NCBI RefSeq assembly: GCF_014334735.1
Contig: NZ_CP060587.1
Location: 1,364,001 to 1,428,000, forward strand
Direction: 5' to 3'
Source: Aeromicrobium senzhongii
GTDB lineage: Bacteria; Actinomycetota; Actinomycetes; Propionibacteriales; Nocardioidaceae
DNA: 64,000 bases
Shown here: positions 9,461 through 41,615 of the stretch, one piece after another
How positions within the stretch are numbered: the first letter of the stretch is position 1
How the letters are laid out: each line of letters starts with the position of its first letter
Notes under the pieces: model-generated
What the model was told of the DNA's origin: nothing
What the model saw: the letters and a program-made list of their open reading frames with translations, nothing else
The model's database searches: none
Translations under genes and position numbers: made by a program

Positions 9461-10129
9461 GTGAGCCAAGCCGCCCCCCAGCTCGACCGCCGTGACGACG
9501 TCTTCGTCCTGAACCTCGGTGACGGAGAGAACCGCTTCCACCCCGACTGGATCGCCGCGGTCGATGCCGCCCTCGATGAGGTCGAGCAGGCCGACGGCGC
9601 CAAGGCGCTCGTCACCACGGCGACCGGCAAGTTCTTCTCCAACGGCCTCGACCTCGACTGGCTGGGCAGCCATGCCGAGCAGATGGGCGAGTACGTCGCG
9701 GCCGTGGAGGGCCTGTTCGCGCGGGTGCTGGCCCTGCCCCTGATCACCGTCGCTGCCGTCCAGGGTCACGCGTTCGCCGCCGGCGCGATGCTGACGCTGG
9801 CCCACGACTTCCGGGTGATGCGCGACGACCGCGGCTTCTGGTGCCTGCCCGAGGTCGACATCCACATCCCGTTCACGCCGGGCATGAACGCGCTCATCAC
9901 GTCGCGCCTCGCGCCGCAGGTCGCCCACGAGTCCATGACGACGGGTCGCCGCTACGGCGGTGCCGATGCGCGTGACCTCGCGATCGTCGACCGGGCGGTC
10001 TCGGAAGACGCGGTGCTGCCGACGGCACTCGAGATCGCCACGGCGAACGCCGGCAAGGCCGGCGAGACGCTCGGCACGATCAAGGCCCGCATGTACGAGG
10101 AGACGCTGAAGGTCCTGCGCGACCACTGA
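9461..10129 (+). CDS. Enoyl-CoA hydratase/isomerase (crotonase family)
   Basis: The 222-residue protein has crotonase-fold features: the oxyanion-hole segment around FFSNGLDLDWL and the glycine/alanine-rich AAVQGHAFAAGAMLTLAHD stretch. The usual catalytic glutamate pair is not obvious (the second region reads LPEVDIHIPF), so the activity could be isomerase or other acyl-CoA chemistry. The start is GTG at 9461, six bases after a GAAGGA SD; an in-frame GTG at 9431 has no SD. No partner beta-oxidation genes are adjacent. Confidence 0.83.
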   Translation: MSQAAPQLDRRDDVFVLNLGDGENRFHPDWIAAVDAALDEVEQADGAKALVTTATGKFFSNGLDLDWLGSHAEQMGEYVAAVEGLFARVLALPLITVAAVQGHAFAAGAMLTLAHDFRVMRDDRGFWCLPEVDIHIPFTPGMNALITSRLAPQVAHESMTTGRRYGGADARDLAIVDRAVSEDAVLPTALEIATANAGKAGETLGTIKARMYEETLKVLRDH

Positions 10130-36389: not shown

Positions 36390-38840
36390 TCACCAGCCGG
36401 CGCCGAAGCAGACGAACGAGGTCGGCCGGTCGGCCGTGGCCTCGGCCAGCGCGACGGCCGGGGGAGTGCCACCGGCCATGAGCCGGTGTACGTCCTGCAG
36501 GAGCTCGCAGGCCTCGTCGTCGGCGACGGCGGCCGGCGAGGCGATGACGCAGCGGGCGCCCGCGTGCAGCCATGCGTTGACCATGCCGAGCGACTCCTCG
36601 GCCCAGCGCTGGGTCGAGCGGCCCACCTCACAGGCCGAGAGGATCACCACGTCGGGCACTCGGGCCAGTTCGTCGAGGTCGTAGCCGAAGAGGGGGCCGT
36701 CGGCCAGCCGGAGACCCGAGAAGAGGGGGTTCTCCACCGCGTGGCGGCCATGCGCGGAGATGTGCAGCAGGTCGACCTGTCCCGCGGCGGCCAAGGTGGC
36801 GGCGACCGTCGCTGCGTCGTCGGTGAGCGTCACTGCTCGCGGCCATCGCGCCGCCGACTGCTTGACCTCCTCCATGGCGCGGACCACCTCGGGCCCGGCC
36901 ACGAAGGCTGCTCGGCGCGGCTGCGGCAGGCCGCGGGTGGCCAGCCAGCGGGTGGCCGCGGAGGCGACCGTGACGGGCCGTCCCGCGAAGCCGGGAAGCA
37001 TCGACCACGGGATGCCGGCGAGGACGCCGGCCTGGGTGACGACGACGCGCCGATCGCCGACCCGGTCGAGGAGCGGCGCGACCAGCGCATCGCCCACCTC
37101 ACCCAGACGACGCAGCAGACCTGCCCGCACCACGCGAGCGATGGCGTCACCGGAGCGCCCTGCGCTGACGTCGAGGTCCGCACGCAGGCCGCCGAGCAGG
37201 CGCAGGATCGGACCGGACGCGCCCAGGTCGACCACGGATCGGGCCGCATCGGTGACGACGAGGGCGCTGATCCGCGCGGCGCCGTCCCACACGTAGCTGA
37301 CCAGGGCGCTGTCGTGACCGAGCGCCCGTTCGAGGTCGTCGAGCGCGCAGATCTCGTTCACCTCGCCGGAGCCCGCGTCCAGCCACGCCCGTTGCCGGAC
37401 GCGCTCGCGCAGGTTCTCGAGTCGCCGGGCCGCGCTCGTGTCCGGTTCGGGCTCGGCCACGGTCAGCGCACGGATCTCCATCAGGTCTGCGGCCGTGGCG
37501 CCGTCGCGGGGCGGTCGCACGGGAACGACCCGTGTCGTCAGCGCCCGGGCGCGCTCCGACCACTCGAAGACCAGCTCGGGCGATCCGCCGTCCAGCGTCA
37601 GGCGGATGCCCGATGCGGCGAGTCCGCGGCCGTGGCCGACCACCGAGCTCATCATGTCGAGGCTGCCGAACGTCGACTGCCAGTCGTGGAGGAGACCCAG
37701 CCCCGCGCGCAGGTGCGCCAAGGCGTCGTCACGGGACCCCTCAGCCAGTGCGAGATCGGCCATCGCGGCCCGCTCGAGCAGCCGCTCGGTGAGGGAGTCG
37801 GTGCTGGTGGTGCGGCTGCGCTGCATCCGCGTCCGTGCCGCGGTCAGGTCGCCCACGGCGATCGCGGCGCGGGCAGCGTTGAGATCGAGCAACTGTGCCT
37901 CGTGATCGAGGCGGCGCTCGCGCAGGGCGGCAGCCAACCGGTCCGTCTCCGGCAACCAGGCCGCGGGCACGGTGGCGATGCGCGCCTGCGCGACCGCCTC
38001 GAGGATCTCGGCGCGAAGAGCCCATGACTCGCTCCCGATCCGGCGCAGTCGCTGTGCCGTGAGGCGCGCGAGTCGCCGGGACCGCTGCGGGTCCGTGGCC
38101 AGCAGGGCTCGGGCGGCGACCAGGTCGCACTCCGCCCGCATCTGGTGGTGGCGGTGTCGTCCCAGGATCGCGGCGCTGGCCTCCAGCAGGCCGATCGCCT
38201 CGCTGGCCATGCCGGCATTGAGCAGTGCCTCGGCCCGGTCCTGGTCGACGAGCGCCAGCGCCACCTGCGAGCCCTCGGCCAGGACGGGACGTGCCGCCTC
38301 CATCAGGCGCAGTGCGGTGGCGAGGTCCCACCGGCGCATCGCCGCATAACCGCTGTTGTGCTGCGCCGTCGCGTGGCCCACCGCGTCGCCGAGTTGCTGG
38401 AAGGCGGCAGCGGCGCGGGCGAAGTCGCGCTCGGCCGCGGCGAAGTCGCCGAGTCGCAGCCGGACGACACCCAGATCGTTGAGGCTGTTGGCGAGCTCCA
38501 AGGACGCGTCGGGCAGGTGGTCGATCGACTGCTCGTAGAGCGCCAAGGATCGGTCGTACTCGCCGCGCCGCTGGTGCAGCGCCGCCTCCTGGCTCGTGAT
38601 GAGCGCGGTGACCTGCGGCGAGTCGACGCCGAGGCCATGGGCCTGCCCGCACAGTTCGAGACCTGTCTCGGGCTCGCCCAGCTCCGTCACTGCCAGGGCC
38701 AGGCTGACCAGGATCCGCGCCTGCAACTCCAGCGACGGGTCGCGGGTCAGGGCGCGCTGGAACTCACGGCGTGCCGAGGCGTACCGCCACTGGTGGAGGT
38801 GTTCGAGCCCCCGACGGTGCAGCTCCTGCGCGGTGAGCAT
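36390..38840 (-). CDS. TPR-CHAT caspase-like protease
   Basis: The 816-residue protein has an N-terminal two-thirds made of helical TPR-like repeats, from about residue 1 to 420 (for example GLEHLHQWRYASARREFQRAL and LGDFAAAERDFARAAAAF). A C-terminal CHAT (caspase HetF-associated with TPRs) domain follows at about 520-816, with the catalytic dyad H697 (HISAHG) and C737 (LSACEVG), both present and in the expected spacing. CHAT enzymes are clan CD cysteine proteases related to separase and caspases. The ATG is 38838-38840; the long frame upstream is a shadow. It is last in a four-gene operon with a sigma factor, a small protein and a subtilase. Confidence 0.9.
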   Translation of the reverse strand: MLTAQELHRRGLEHLHQWRYASARREFQRALTRDPSLELQARILVSLALAVTELGEPETGLELCGQAHGLGVDSPQVTALITSQEAALHQRRGEYDRSLALYEQSIDHLPDASLELANSLNDLGVVRLRLGDFAAAERDFARAAAAFQQLGDAVGHATAQHNSGYAAMRRWDLATALRLMEAARPVLAEGSQVALALVDQDRAEALLNAGMASEAIGLLEASAAILGRHRHHQMRAECDLVAARALLATDPQRSRRLARLTAQRLRRIGSESWALRAEILEAVAQARIATVPAAWLPETDRLAAALRERRLDHEAQLLDLNAARAAIAVGDLTAARTRMQRSRTTSTDSLTERLLERAAMADLALAEGSRDDALAHLRAGLGLLHDWQSTFGSLDMMSSVVGHGRGLAASGIRLTLDGGSPELVFEWSERARALTTRVVPVRPPRDGATAADLMEIRALTVAEPEPDTSAARRLENLRERVRQRAWLDAGSGEVNEICALDDLERALGHDSALVSYVWDGAARISALVVTDAARSVVDLGASGPILRLLGGLRADLDVSAGRSGDAIARVVRAGLLRRLGEVGDALVAPLLDRVGDRRVVVTQAGVLAGIPWSMLPGFAGRPVTVASAATRWLATRGLPQPRRAAFVAGPEVVRAMEEVKQSAARWPRAVTLTDDAATVAATLAAAGQVDLLHISAHGRHAVENPLFSGLRLADGPLFGYDLDELARVPDVVILSACEVGRSTQRWAEESLGMVNAWLHAGARCVIASPAAVADDEACELLQDVHRLMAGGTPPAVALAEATADRPTSFVCFGAGW

Positions 38841-38847
38841 GCCTCCA

Positions 38848-40476
38848 TCATGGTCGAGCGGCGACGAGCTTGGCCACGACCGACGCGTTCTGCTGGACGA
38901 TCTCCTCGGCCGGACGTTCAGGTGCGTCGGGTGGCGGCAGTTCGCGGCTGAGACGCTGGGCGAGCTCCGCCGCGAACACGGGGGCGGCGAACGAGGTCCC
39001 GCTCCACACGGCGAAACCGCCTCGGTAGTCGTCCGGGTCGATCGCCTCGCGGACCCGCGAGCCATGGCGGATCCGAGCGACGGGCTCGAGTCCGCCCTGG
39101 AACGGTGGCACGGTGCTGACCAGGGACGAGCCGGGGCGATGCACGGCGACCCAGGGCCCGGCGTTCGAGTACAGCGCGTCGGTGACGGCGTTCGGGTTGA
39201 GCGCGCCCACCGCCACGATCGGAGTGCTGCGGGGGTCGTGGACCACGATCTGGTCGGCGCCGTCCCACGGCGCGAACGCCGCCGGGAACATCGGGCGAGT
39301 GGTGGCGTCGTTGCCCGACGAGCAGACGACGACGGTTCCGGTCCGGCCGATCGCGGCGAGGATCTCGTAGAGCGTCGGGTCGAAGAGGTGGTCGACCGGC
39401 GTCTCGTGGTAGTACCCGAACGAGAGGTTGAGGACGTCGAGGTCGAGTCCGCCACCGGTGTCGCCGAGGCGCACCAGCTGGGCGATCCGCATGAGCACCG
39501 TCGCGAGGTCGGACTCGGGCGTGGTGCCGTCGGAGTCCAGGACCCGCCACCAGTGGATGTCGGCGTCGGGCGCACCCTGATGGAGCAGACCGACGATGAA
39601 CGTGCCGTGACCGGAGGCCTCGTCGAGCGAGCCGTCCAGCGGTCCGGAGACGTCACCCACGGACTCGGGGTCGGTGGCCGTGTCGGTCCGACCGATCGTC
39701 GCGCCCGGCAACAGCCCGCTGCCGTCGTGCACGGCGACGGTGAACCAGGGATGGGCCCCGCAGCCCGTGTCGACCACTCCGATCCGGGCGCGACGCGGCC
39801 CGTCGGGGTCGTCCGGGGCACGCCCCGGAGCCGGGCCGACGTACGAGACGGGTTGACGGCCCCCGCTGCCCTGGTCGGCGTACGAGTCGACTCCGTTGCC
39901 TCGCGTCAGGGGATTGCCTCGGGTCAACGGGTTGCCCCGGGTGAGCGGGTTGCCCCGCGTGAGGGGGTTCCCGCGGGTGAGCGGCGAGGTCGACAGGACG
40001 TGGTCCAGGCCGATGCCCCGCAGCAGGTCGCCGTCCGGCGAGCTGGCGCGCGCCGCCTGCAGGAGCGTCCAGGCGTCCGGCGGGCGCGTGGGGGAGTTCT
40101 GGGTGGCCGAGATGACCACCCGGGCGAGGCCGAGCACACCGGCGGCCCACGGGTAGCGCTCGAGGCGCTCGCGACGCTCCTGGGGTGACTCGTCGAGCGT
40201 GATGCGGGGGAAGTCGGGGTCCTCCTCGACGAGCCAGTCGAACGCCCGCGCGGCATCGCGCAACAGGGCGATCGCCGCGTCGACGTCGATCAGCGTCGAC
40301 ACCAGGAGCCGGGTGCTGAGGTAGGCGGTCGGGTTCGCCCGCACACCGTCGACCAGCGCCCCGGACTCGGCCGCGAGCAGGCGGCCCTGCTCCTCGGCGA
40401 TCGATCGGGCGCGCGTCCAGTCGTCGAACGACTCGAACCGCGGGGTCCGGCGGTGGCCGTTGTCCTCGGGGGCCAT
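38848..40476 (-). CDS. S8 subtilisin-like protease with PLTRGN repeats
   Basis: The 542-residue protein has no signal peptide. An N-terminal helical region (1-160) precedes five tandem PLTRGN hexapeptides (165-194), a short glycine-rich linker, and the subtilase domain. That domain has the complete triad D236 (GVVDTGCG), H290 (GHGTFIVG) and S495 (GTSFAAP), plus oxyanion N389 (SSGND). It is therefore likely active and cytoplasmic, unlike exported subtilisins. The N-terminal region may act as a prodomain. It lies seven bases upstream of the CHAT protease gene and eight bases after the small protein gene, so all are one transcript. Confidence 0.92.
   Translation of the reverse strand: MAPEDNGHRRTPRFESFDDWTRARSIAEEQGRLLAAESGALVDGVRANPTAYLSTRLLVSTLIDVDAAIALLRDAARAFDWLVEEDPDFPRITLDESPQERRERLERYPWAAGVLGLARVVISATQNSPTRPPDAWTLLQAARASSPDGDLLRGIGLDHVLSTSPLTRGNPLTRGNPLTRGNPLTRGNPLTRGNGVDSYADQGSGGRQPVSYVGPAPGRAPDDPDGPRRARIGVVDTGCGAHPWFTVAVHDGSGLLPGATIGRTDTATDPESVGDVSGPLDGSLDEASGHGTFIVGLLHQGAPDADIHWWRVLDSDGTTPESDLATVLMRIAQLVRLGDTGGGLDLDVLNLSFGYYHETPVDHLFDPTLYEILAAIGRTGTVVVCSSGNDATTRPMFPAAFAPWDGADQIVVHDPRSTPIVAVGALNPNAVTDALYSNAGPWVAVHRPGSSLVSTVPPFQGGLEPVARIRHGSRVREAIDPDDYRGGFAVWSGTSFAAPVFAAELAQRLSRELPPPDAPERPAEEIVQQNASVVAKLVAARP
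39895..39984 (-). repeat. Five tandem 18-bp repeats in the subtilase gene
   Basis: The units encode PLTRGN five times. They are alike but not identical at third positions, so the amino acid sequence is kept while the DNA has drifted. This suggests selection on the peptide, not a recent slippage array. Confidence 0.9.
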
Positions 40477-40484
40477 GGTGCTCC

Positions 40485-40931
40485 TCAGATCTCGAAGGTC
40501 GGGGTGGCGAGGTTGTCGCGGTCCGCGACCTCGAACCAGATGCGCACCAGGCCGGCGGGCACCTCGTCGAACTCGAACCGTCCGGCGACGAGGTCGGCCG
40601 TCAGGGCATCGTCTCCGCGCTGGAGCCGGGCCCCGCCGTCGTGGGCCGGGGTGACCCAGCCGTCGATGCGGCGGGTGTCGGACGTCGGTCCCTCGGTCAC
40701 GCGCACCAACACCGTGACGTCGTCGTAGGCGAACTCGATCGTGAGCGGGCCGGAGCCGCGCGTGCCGACCAGTGCCGTGCTGCGGTTGACCAGGCTCAGC
40801 AACTCGTACTCGTTGTCGAGGTCCTCGGCGGCGATCACGGCGATCATGGCGTCGGCCAGGTGCGCCGGCGGCGGGTCGATGGCCTCGTACATGGCCCGGA
40901 GGTCGCTGAAGACCGGTTCGCGTTCAGTCAT
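40485..40931 (-). CDS. 148-aa soluble protein, candidate regulator of the cassette
   Basis: The protein has an N-terminal helical part (DLRAMYEAIDPPPAHLADAMIAVIA) and a C-terminal strand-rich half, with FDGWVTP-like RIDGWVTPAHDGGARLQRG and a final GRFEFDEVPAGLVRIWFEV that resembles a carboxypeptidase-regulatory or transthyretin-like strand pattern. There is no membrane segment and no cysteine-zinc motif. The ATG overlaps the sigma factor stop by ATGA, the usual place for an anti-sigma factor. By position it could restrain the sigma factor or link it to the proteases, but no anti-sigma signature is visible. Confidence 0.75.
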   Translation of the reverse strand: MTEREPVFSDLRAMYEAIDPPPAHLADAMIAVIAAEDLDNEYELLSLVNRSTALVGTRGSGPLTIEFAYDDVTVLVRVTEGPTSDTRRIDGWVTPAHDGGARLQRGDDALTADLVAGRFEFDEVPAGLVRIWFEVADRDNLATPTFEI

Positions 40932-41533
40932 GACGAGGCCCCCTTGGCGATGACGGACTTGAGCTTCTCGAGGCAGCGGCGCCGCGTCGGGCCGATGCTG
41001 CCCACGGGCATGCCGAGGTCCTCGGAGATGTGGTGGTAGTCGGGCCGGTCGTCGAACGCGATCACCCGCAACAACCGCTGGCACCGTTCGTTCAGCTGCG
41101 CGACCGCGTGCCAGAGCCGATGGTTCTCGTCGGCCTCGACGGCCTCGGACTCGGCGGCGCGCGTGGTCGGCAGGACCGGCGCCAGCACCTCGTCGTCGGT
41201 GGCGTCCTCGCGGCGGTTGCGCGTGGCGACGCGCCACGCCTGGCGCCGGGCGGTGATGATCAACCACGACGCCACGGCGCGGGGGTTCTCGACCGCATCG
41301 GCCTTGCGCACCAGGGTCAGCCAGGTGAACTGGATGACGTCCTCGCAGACGTCCTCATCGAGCCGGTAGGCGCGGACCACGTGCCACAGCACCGGGGTCA
41401 TCTCGCGCACGAGCTCGTCGATCGCTGCTCGGTCTCCGTCACGCCAGCGTGCGAAGGCCTCACCGGAGCGGATCCACGGGCCGTCGTCGGCTTCTGCTGG
41501 TTCGTGTGACTTGCTGTCGGTCACAGGTTTCAT
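40928..41533 (-). CDS. ECF-type RNA polymerase sigma factor
   Basis: The 201-residue protein has a sigma-70 region 2 (about 30-110; CEDVIQFTWLTLVRKADAVENPRAVASWLI) and region 4 (about 145-195; QLNERCQRLLRVIAFDDRP, then HHISEDLGMPVGSIGPTRRRCLEKL). The ATG at 41531-41533 was chosen; the frame continues upstream across the divergent lipoprotein gene only as a shadow. It is first gene of the cassette and divergent from the lipoprotein gene, with 94 bp between. It probably drives its own operon, but no matching promoter was identified. Confidence 0.9.
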   Translation of the reverse strand: MKPVTDSKSHEPAEADDGPWIRSGEAFARWRDGDRAAIDELVREMTPVLWHVVRAYRLDEDVCEDVIQFTWLTLVRKADAVENPRAVASWLIITARRQAWRVATRNRREDATDDEVLAPVLPTTRAAESEAVEADENHRLWHAVAQLNERCQRLLRVIAFDDRPDYHHISEDLGMPVGSIGPTRRRCLEKLKSVIAKGASS

Positions 41534-41615
41534 TGTGCGCACATCCGGGACGAGTCGAGAAGGGGTCGGCCTGATACACGCCGACACGGAGCGCTGTCCA
41601 ATCGACCCGCGCAGG

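Follow-up and report, generated by a model that had tools for sequence, protein, structure and literature searches.

Covariation between a tandem peptide array in a subtilase and the TPR groove of a neighbouring CHAT protease in Aeromicrobium senzhongii and its relatives

How do two proteases that are encoded side by side, both lacking an export signal, recognise each other? The question is raised by a four-gene locus of Aeromicrobium senzhongii (contig NZ_CP060587.1), located in a stretch of 64,000 nucleotides (positions 1,364,001 to 1,428,000 of the forward strand), which is called the window here and numbered from its first letter. The initial annotation described four minus-strand genes at 36390-41533, coding for an extracytoplasmic function (ECF) sigma factor, a 148-aa protein, a subtilase of family S8 and a protease that combines tetratricopeptide repeats (TPR) with a CHAT domain. 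All four genes and their junctions of -4, 8 and 7 bp were recovered, and hydropathy showed neither a signal-peptide-like nor a membrane segment in either protease, as that annotation had stated for signal peptides. We propose that the locus probably encodes an intracellular, self-amplifying relay, and that a lineage-specific peptide code lets the CHAT protease dock on the subtilase.

The subtilase (542 aa, 38848..40476, minus strand) carries five tandem copies of the hexapeptide PLTRGN at residues 165-194 (39895..39984, minus strand), a feature absent from the initial annotation. The array is placed between a conserved N-terminal region recognised by alignment (around residues 30-160, 39997..40389, minus strand), which lies in the position of a prodomain and presumably acts as one, and the S8 catalytic domain (residues 231-510, 38947..39786, minus strand). 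An exact tandem unit was found at the same place in 37 of the first 40 relatives, mostly with a different unit; the exceptions are L044 (imperfect), L059 (unread bases) and L072 (none). Exact arrays occur in 225 of 232 distinct S8 homologues, with at least three copies in 212 and a total of 132 distinct units, each repeated 2 to 12 times per subtilase. The period is 6 in 183 arrays, 7 in 24, 5 in 11, 9 in 5 and 10 in 2. The unit sequence changes between lineages. When the three-copy test was applied to the other open reading frames (ORFs) of these loci, it was positive in 2/240 CHAT, 0/239 small and 4/237 sigma proteins. Seven S8 sequences are without an exact array: L190, L228 and L271 are ORFs that lack the N-terminal part, L044 is near-perfect, L174 and L176 repeat only a core between varying spacers, and L175 has none. 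The cores of L176 and L174 are invariant (PYITGPA or PYITGPG, PYFSGPG) and their short spacers drift, as would be expected of docking motifs. In the genome of A. senzhongii, no other site encodes LTRGNP, a degenerate word with four exact matches genome-wide, all of them inside the array.

Two main gene orders were observed, sigma-small-S8-CHAT (sigma-first) and S8-sigma-small-CHAT (S8-first), and the sigma gene adjoins the small gene in both. In the S8-first clade (L179-L246), the units are mostly not of the proline type but Gly-rich, and they contain an aromatic residue (YGSGVG, YWGGVGG, GLYWGGQGG).

Codon usage within the arrays was analysed for 115 arrays of 121 genes, a set in which some genomes appear twice, with different locus ids, and which contains the readable units of L059. 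Synonymous differences between the units of one gene reached on average 0.80 of the value of a random codon draw, at identical protein sequence. Since the codons have diverged and the protein has not, selection seems to hold all copies of an array to one sequence. The same divergence excludes recent DNA duplication as the general cause of identical units, although a few arrays look recent.

The partner that appears to read the unit is the TPR-CHAT protease (816 aa, 36390..38840, minus strand), more precisely its TPR groove helices at residues 75-208 (38217..38618, minus strand). Covariation was calculated as mutual information with average-product correction for 86 of 111 distinct S8 loci; 106 of the 111 have a hexamer in the proline phase, 99 have all four genes and 89 a full CHAT protein, and L059, L071 and L072 had been excluded beforehand. 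Of 623,157 inter-protein column pairs, the two that rank highest connect unit position 2 with residue 198 of the CHAT protein and position 3 with residue 125. Position 4 pairs with residue 118 (z 6.1). None of the S8 columns of similar entropy matched these pair values (0/105, 0/114 and 0/124). At position 2, Gly198 goes with Tyr, Ser198 or Cys198 with Phe, Val198 with Leu, and Met198 or Leu198 with Val or Ala. At position 3, Asn125 is paired with His, Val125 with Thr, and Leu125 with Gly or Thr; at position 4, Arg118 is found with Ser, Asp or Glu, and Asn118 with Arg or Lys. These pairings are chemically sensible. The CHAT domain, the sigma factor and the small protein were rejected as readers of the array, with maxima of z 4.6, 3.6 and 3.4, compared to 8.8 for the TPR.

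The groove combines variable sites (118, 125, 155, 194 and 198) with mostly conserved ones (84, 122, 162, 165 and 201). Among 89 sequences, Q84 is present in 88, N122 in 78 (D in the window), N162 in 88, Y165 in 86 and D201 in 88. RRNPP receptors hold the backbone of their peptide with conserved Asn, Gln, Asp and Tyr residues, to which these sites might correspond. In some distant loci, Q84 is replaced by Leu and Y165 by Cys.

The changes were also counted by parsimony, with a tree derived from other sequence parts. Of 24 changes at unit position 2, 19 share a branch with a change of residue 198, compared to a mean of 4.9 and a maximum of 10 for 104 comparable columns. Position 3 and residue 125 share a branch in 10/21 changes (one of 117 columns was as good), position 4 and residue 118 in 11/30 (one of 118). 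Among 31 disjoint closest pairs, the associations 2/198, 3/125 and 4/118 gave Fisher p values of 0.0007, 0.0059 and 0.0011, respectively.

The pairings were also applied to held-out loci, 21 of 23 after removal of two duplicates, of which 18 distinct loci entered the permutation test. Residue 198 predicts unit position 2 in 13/21 loci (commonest residue 8, nearest discovery locus 8) and residue 125 predicts position 3 in 12/21 (commonest residue 4, nearest discovery locus 6). For the 12 distinct sigma-first loci, one of which (L262) has a CHAT protein 92% identical to that of a discovery locus, position 3 was right in 9 versus 3.0 after permutation (p ~1e-5) and position 2 in 9 versus 6.3 (p 0.027). 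With the six S8-first loci added, the values are 9/18 for position 3 and 10/18 for position 2. The S8-first clade was additionally analysed alone, with units found in 45 of 50 loci. In these 45, residues 198 and 49 are joint first for position 2 (z 4.4), Q90 is first for position 3 (6.0) and S83 for position 6 (6.0), and for position 4 G155 comes third only, with other columns mixed in. Taken together, these covariation patterns make it very likely that the CHAT protease docks physically on the subtilase array.

Several observations weigh against this interpretation. Unit position 4 was predicted in 10/21 held-out loci from residue 118 and in 9/21 from residue 155; since the commonest residue alone gives 10 (nearest locus 2), there is no gain at this position. 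Q90 ties with residue 125 in the branch test, and residues 194 and 155 are ordinary there, being equalled by 36/105 and 7/98 columns. In the 86-locus set, no clear partner in the TPR emerged for unit positions 5 and 6, and position 3 also couples to a column in the catalytic part of S8 (z 5.9). The residue-125 rule was wrong in all six held-out S8-first loci. L267 and L268, the loci at the greatest distance, agree with the discovery table at residue 125 in 1/4 CHAT proteins and at residue 198 in 2/4. At L094 (6282-9581; the same place as L265, 2217-5516), two adjacent subtilases with PFTRTN and PFGKTN stand beside a single CHAT gene, so that one CHAT protein faces two different units. L097 has an S8-CHAT pair without adjacent sigma and small genes. 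In the structural comparison, for which a second aligner re-examined the matches of Foldseek, the TPR model superposes best on pheromone-bound Rap receptors, and its superhelix is of the Rap type; yet TPR superhelices look alike, and the rows for Craspase differ from those for Rap by no more than about 1 Z unit.

The CHAT protein of L094/L265 carries L125, a residue found with both G and T units. L267 (18001 bp) and L268 (19001 bp), from another family, each have a single sigma gene and two S8-CHAT modules that differ in their units; these adjacent modules, with PFTSGG and PMYDGH/PLYDGH, form a natural orthogonality test. L123 has sigma-small-S8 without a CHAT gene. From the module arrangements in L094, L267/L268, L097 and L123, the S8-CHAT pair with its code looks like the core of the system and the sigma-small pair like its control.

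The subtilase matches Peptidase_S8 (2.1e-15) and the CHAT protein TPR_12 (5.1e-13) and CHAT (2.2e-24) in Pfam, the latter domain spanning residues 579-802 (36435..37106, minus strand); the CHAT fold with a His-Cys dyad is present together with the TPR. The complete S8 triad and CHAT dyad reported previously hold across the homologues, with D236/H290/S495 plus the oxyanion residue N389 invariant in 47 aligned sequences and H697/C737 invariant in 57. The CHAT protein has a single match in the whole genome (one contig, 3.13 Mb). The nearest named relative among the best 80 of 451 relatives is the Aeromicrobium metagenome-assembled genome L073, with 59% in the subtilase.

The initial annotation had regarded rare co-occurrence of the four genes, or wide variation of the catalytic residues in close homologues, as refuting its reading. 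Such variation is not seen in the alignments, and the genes do co-occur: they lie close together in 37/40 loci of the same family, in 77 of the best 80 named loci (Aeromicrobium, Nocardioides, Cellulomonas, Microbacterium, Klenkia and others) and in 95/100 further loci, including L255, whose small gene was unconfirmed by tblastn; the three sets partly overlap. The gene set is patchy, though common in some groups. A strong S8 match was found in at least 8 of 396 genomes of the phylum (three candidates scored per genome), in 109/198 genomes of one genus and in 80/149 of one family. Within the genus, the cassette is located between pyrF and a run of lipoprotein, mihF and gmk genes, with carB among the neighbours. 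The pyrF gene was found in 39/41 genus genomes, and of 30 pyrF loci fetched, 4 (window included) have the cassette, 24 have an empty site, where pyrF is directly followed by lipoprotein, mihF and gmk, and 2 are undecided. L036 and L037 also carry the cassette at the pyrF site. In L035 (~9506-10052, minus strand) the sigma gene is matched in two pieces in different frames and may be frameshifted. In L072, distantly related CHAT, S8 and sigma genes form a trio whose strands are mixed, and its S8-matching ORF has no array. Searches of a plasmid collection with the CHAT protein and of a phage collection with the subtilase returned four records and one record, respectively, all below 60% identity.

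The sigma factor (201 aa, 40928..41533, minus strand; Sigma70_r2 2e-6, Pfam) gave generic ECF matches in a family search whose libraries are without ECF group models. A candidate ECF promoter, GTATCAG-N16-CTCGTC (41549..41577, minus strand), ends 15 nt upstream of its start codon. The word was aligned in six genus loci, window included, and the boxes were picked after viewing this alignment; these six loci were excluded from the subsequent count. GTATCAG-N15/16-CTCNT upstream of the first gene reached a two-box score of at least 11 in 91/204 regions (1.8 expected from shuffles) and of at least 10 in 175/204 (17.6 expected), where some genomes contribute twice to the 204 regions and the shuffle preserves dinucleotide blocks only. 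An earlier version of the word with a fixed CGTC was found in 7/214 regions and was superseded by the scored search. The pattern GTATCAGN{14,17}CTCNT has three matches in the whole genome, one of them at the operon, and these reveal no convincing second sigma target: the second match falls within what looks like a lipoprotein ORF on the opposite strand, and for the third no ORF of at least 90 aa begins in the 300 nt that follow. Based on the promoter word and its position, the sigma factor most likely drives its own operon.

The 148-aa protein (40485..40931, minus strand; ATGA overlap with the sigma gene) consists of an N-terminal part with a conserved DPxP motif and a C-terminal carboxypeptidase-regulatory-like part. 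CarboxypepD_reg matches weakly in 4/37 of its homologues; Pfam gives no match for the window protein and no anti-sigma domain in it or its homologues, and no PDB match fell below E 0.19. By analogy with Craspase, it may hold the sigma factor as a candidate anti-sigma factor. When the unit is excluded, the small protein and the catalytic part of CHAT have the top share of strongly covarying pairs (0.0033, z>4), which could mean an enzyme-substrate relationship.

In the mechanism that we propose, the TPR superhelix would act as a Rap/Phr-type receptor for peptides, its ligand being the unit repeated in the linker of the partner subtilase rather than a free pheromone. If each unit is one docking site, one subtilase can therefore hold one or several CHAT proteases. 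Docking would bring the CHAT active site to the junction of the N-terminal and catalytic domains of the subtilase, or would cluster CHAT proteases for mutual activation, and one protease would thereby switch the other on; such activation, in one direction or the other, is likely. The small protein would be the inhibitor of the sigma factor and be removed by the relay, after which the freed sigma factor would raise transcription of the operon via its own promoter. More tentatively, we suggest a private code, in which a Rap-like receptor fused to a separase-like protease reads the tandem unit of its own lineage, the 2 to 12 docking sites gather CHAT proteases for proximity activation like that of initiator caspases, and a change of the code insulates the relays of different lineages from each other.

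Other explanations were weighed against docking. The initial annotation read the locus as a defence cascade that phage or stress would induce, with the TPR as the sensor of an invader. A CHAT protease does act in CRISPR-linked immunity (PMC10028731), and the presence or absence of the cassette at one genus site would suit such a role. The four proteins, however, have no PADLOC match beyond a weak one to BovA, nor could the flanks be recognised as defence islands, since wrong-frame ORFs in GC-rich DNA obscured the comparison. The TPR groove covaries with a partner subtilase, which leaves the proposed sensor role unsupported. What stands of that reading is a conserved two-protease unit without export signals and a sigma factor that probably autoregulates; as a whole we regard it as rather unlikely. 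Slightly less probable still is that the array is a multi-copy peptide precursor, carried and possibly also processed by the subtilase, and that the freed hexapeptides bind and switch the TPR-CHAT protein or TPR proteins of neighbours in the manner of Rap/Phr. The superposition on Rap-pheromone complexes and the lineage-specific identical copies fit this idea, and RRNPPA propeptides that carry tandem pheromones have been published (PMC11343458). Against it, the array is embedded in an enzyme without a signal-peptide-like segment rather than in a small exported propeptide, and the cores of L176 are separated by spacers of varying sequence.

Two further possibilities treat the array as a linker. 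Each unit could be a site at which the active site of CHAT or of S8 cuts, and the array would then serve as a linker for activation or self-processing. The position between the N-terminal and catalytic domains and the coupling of unit position 3 to the S8 column would agree with this, and clan CD proteases often cut after Arg. Arg is, however, found at unit position 4 in only 34/106 arrays, the best pair of the unit with the CHAT domain stays at z 4.6 versus 8.8 for the TPR, and redundant sites would presumably not keep all copies identical, so we consider this improbable. That the array is a mere flexible linker grown by DNA slippage, its identity reflecting recent duplication, is hardly credible: in some arrays, such as those of L051, L092 and L047, the number of distinct DNA units is indeed only one or two, but units in general differ synonymously to the extent given above with zero protein difference, and the array co-evolves with another gene.

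If docking of the CHAT protease on the array is correct, a previously unexplained operon becomes a testable machine, and peptide reading of the RRNPP type is linked to caspase/separase-like proteases. A caspase-like protease relay inside bacteria is suggested, with a species-specific peptide 'password' between the proteases. The 132 units, most with a matching TPR-CHAT gene, form a natural library for decoding TPR-peptide specificity, and what a bacterial TPR-CHAT protease recognises becomes directly testable with synthetic peptides.

The initial annotation knew of no described system with exactly this gene set. The set has in fact been described as the genetic context of ECF54 in Actinobacteria, where an ECF sigma factor has carboxypeptidase, subtilase and CHAT neighbours and control by proteolysis was proposed (PMC8999054). 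The gene neighbours match those found here, with the carboxypeptidase-regulatory-like match being the weak one mentioned above. For ECF54, control was proposed without an anti-sigma factor, whereas the small protein is a candidate anti-sigma factor here; the ECF54 passages of that paper make no mention of a peptide array, a TPR reader or a promoter word. The gene set is thus known, while its wiring seems previously undescribed: no paper on the array or code was found in a literature search whose scope omitted most subscription papers.

In the Craspase system, the TPR-CHAT protease Csx29 cleaves Csx30, the protein that keeps an ECF sigma factor, CASP-sigma, inactive (PMC10028731). The TPR-CHAT protein of the window scores 13.4 bits with the NCBIfam model of Csx29 (cut-off 300) and is therefore outside this sequence family. 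The Craspase substrate binds the CHAT2 domain, whereas here the TPR seems to read the partner peptide. The match to BovA (PADLOC, 3.5e-6) covers only residues 697-775 of the CHAT region. Separase differs in that the present protease is bacterial and has a subtilase as its partner. Compared to Rap/Phr and NprR of the RRNPP type, the receptor is fused to a CHAT protease; the RRNPP ligand is a small secreted propeptide encoded beside its receptor, whereas the repeat described here resides inside a 542-aa subtilase without an export signal.

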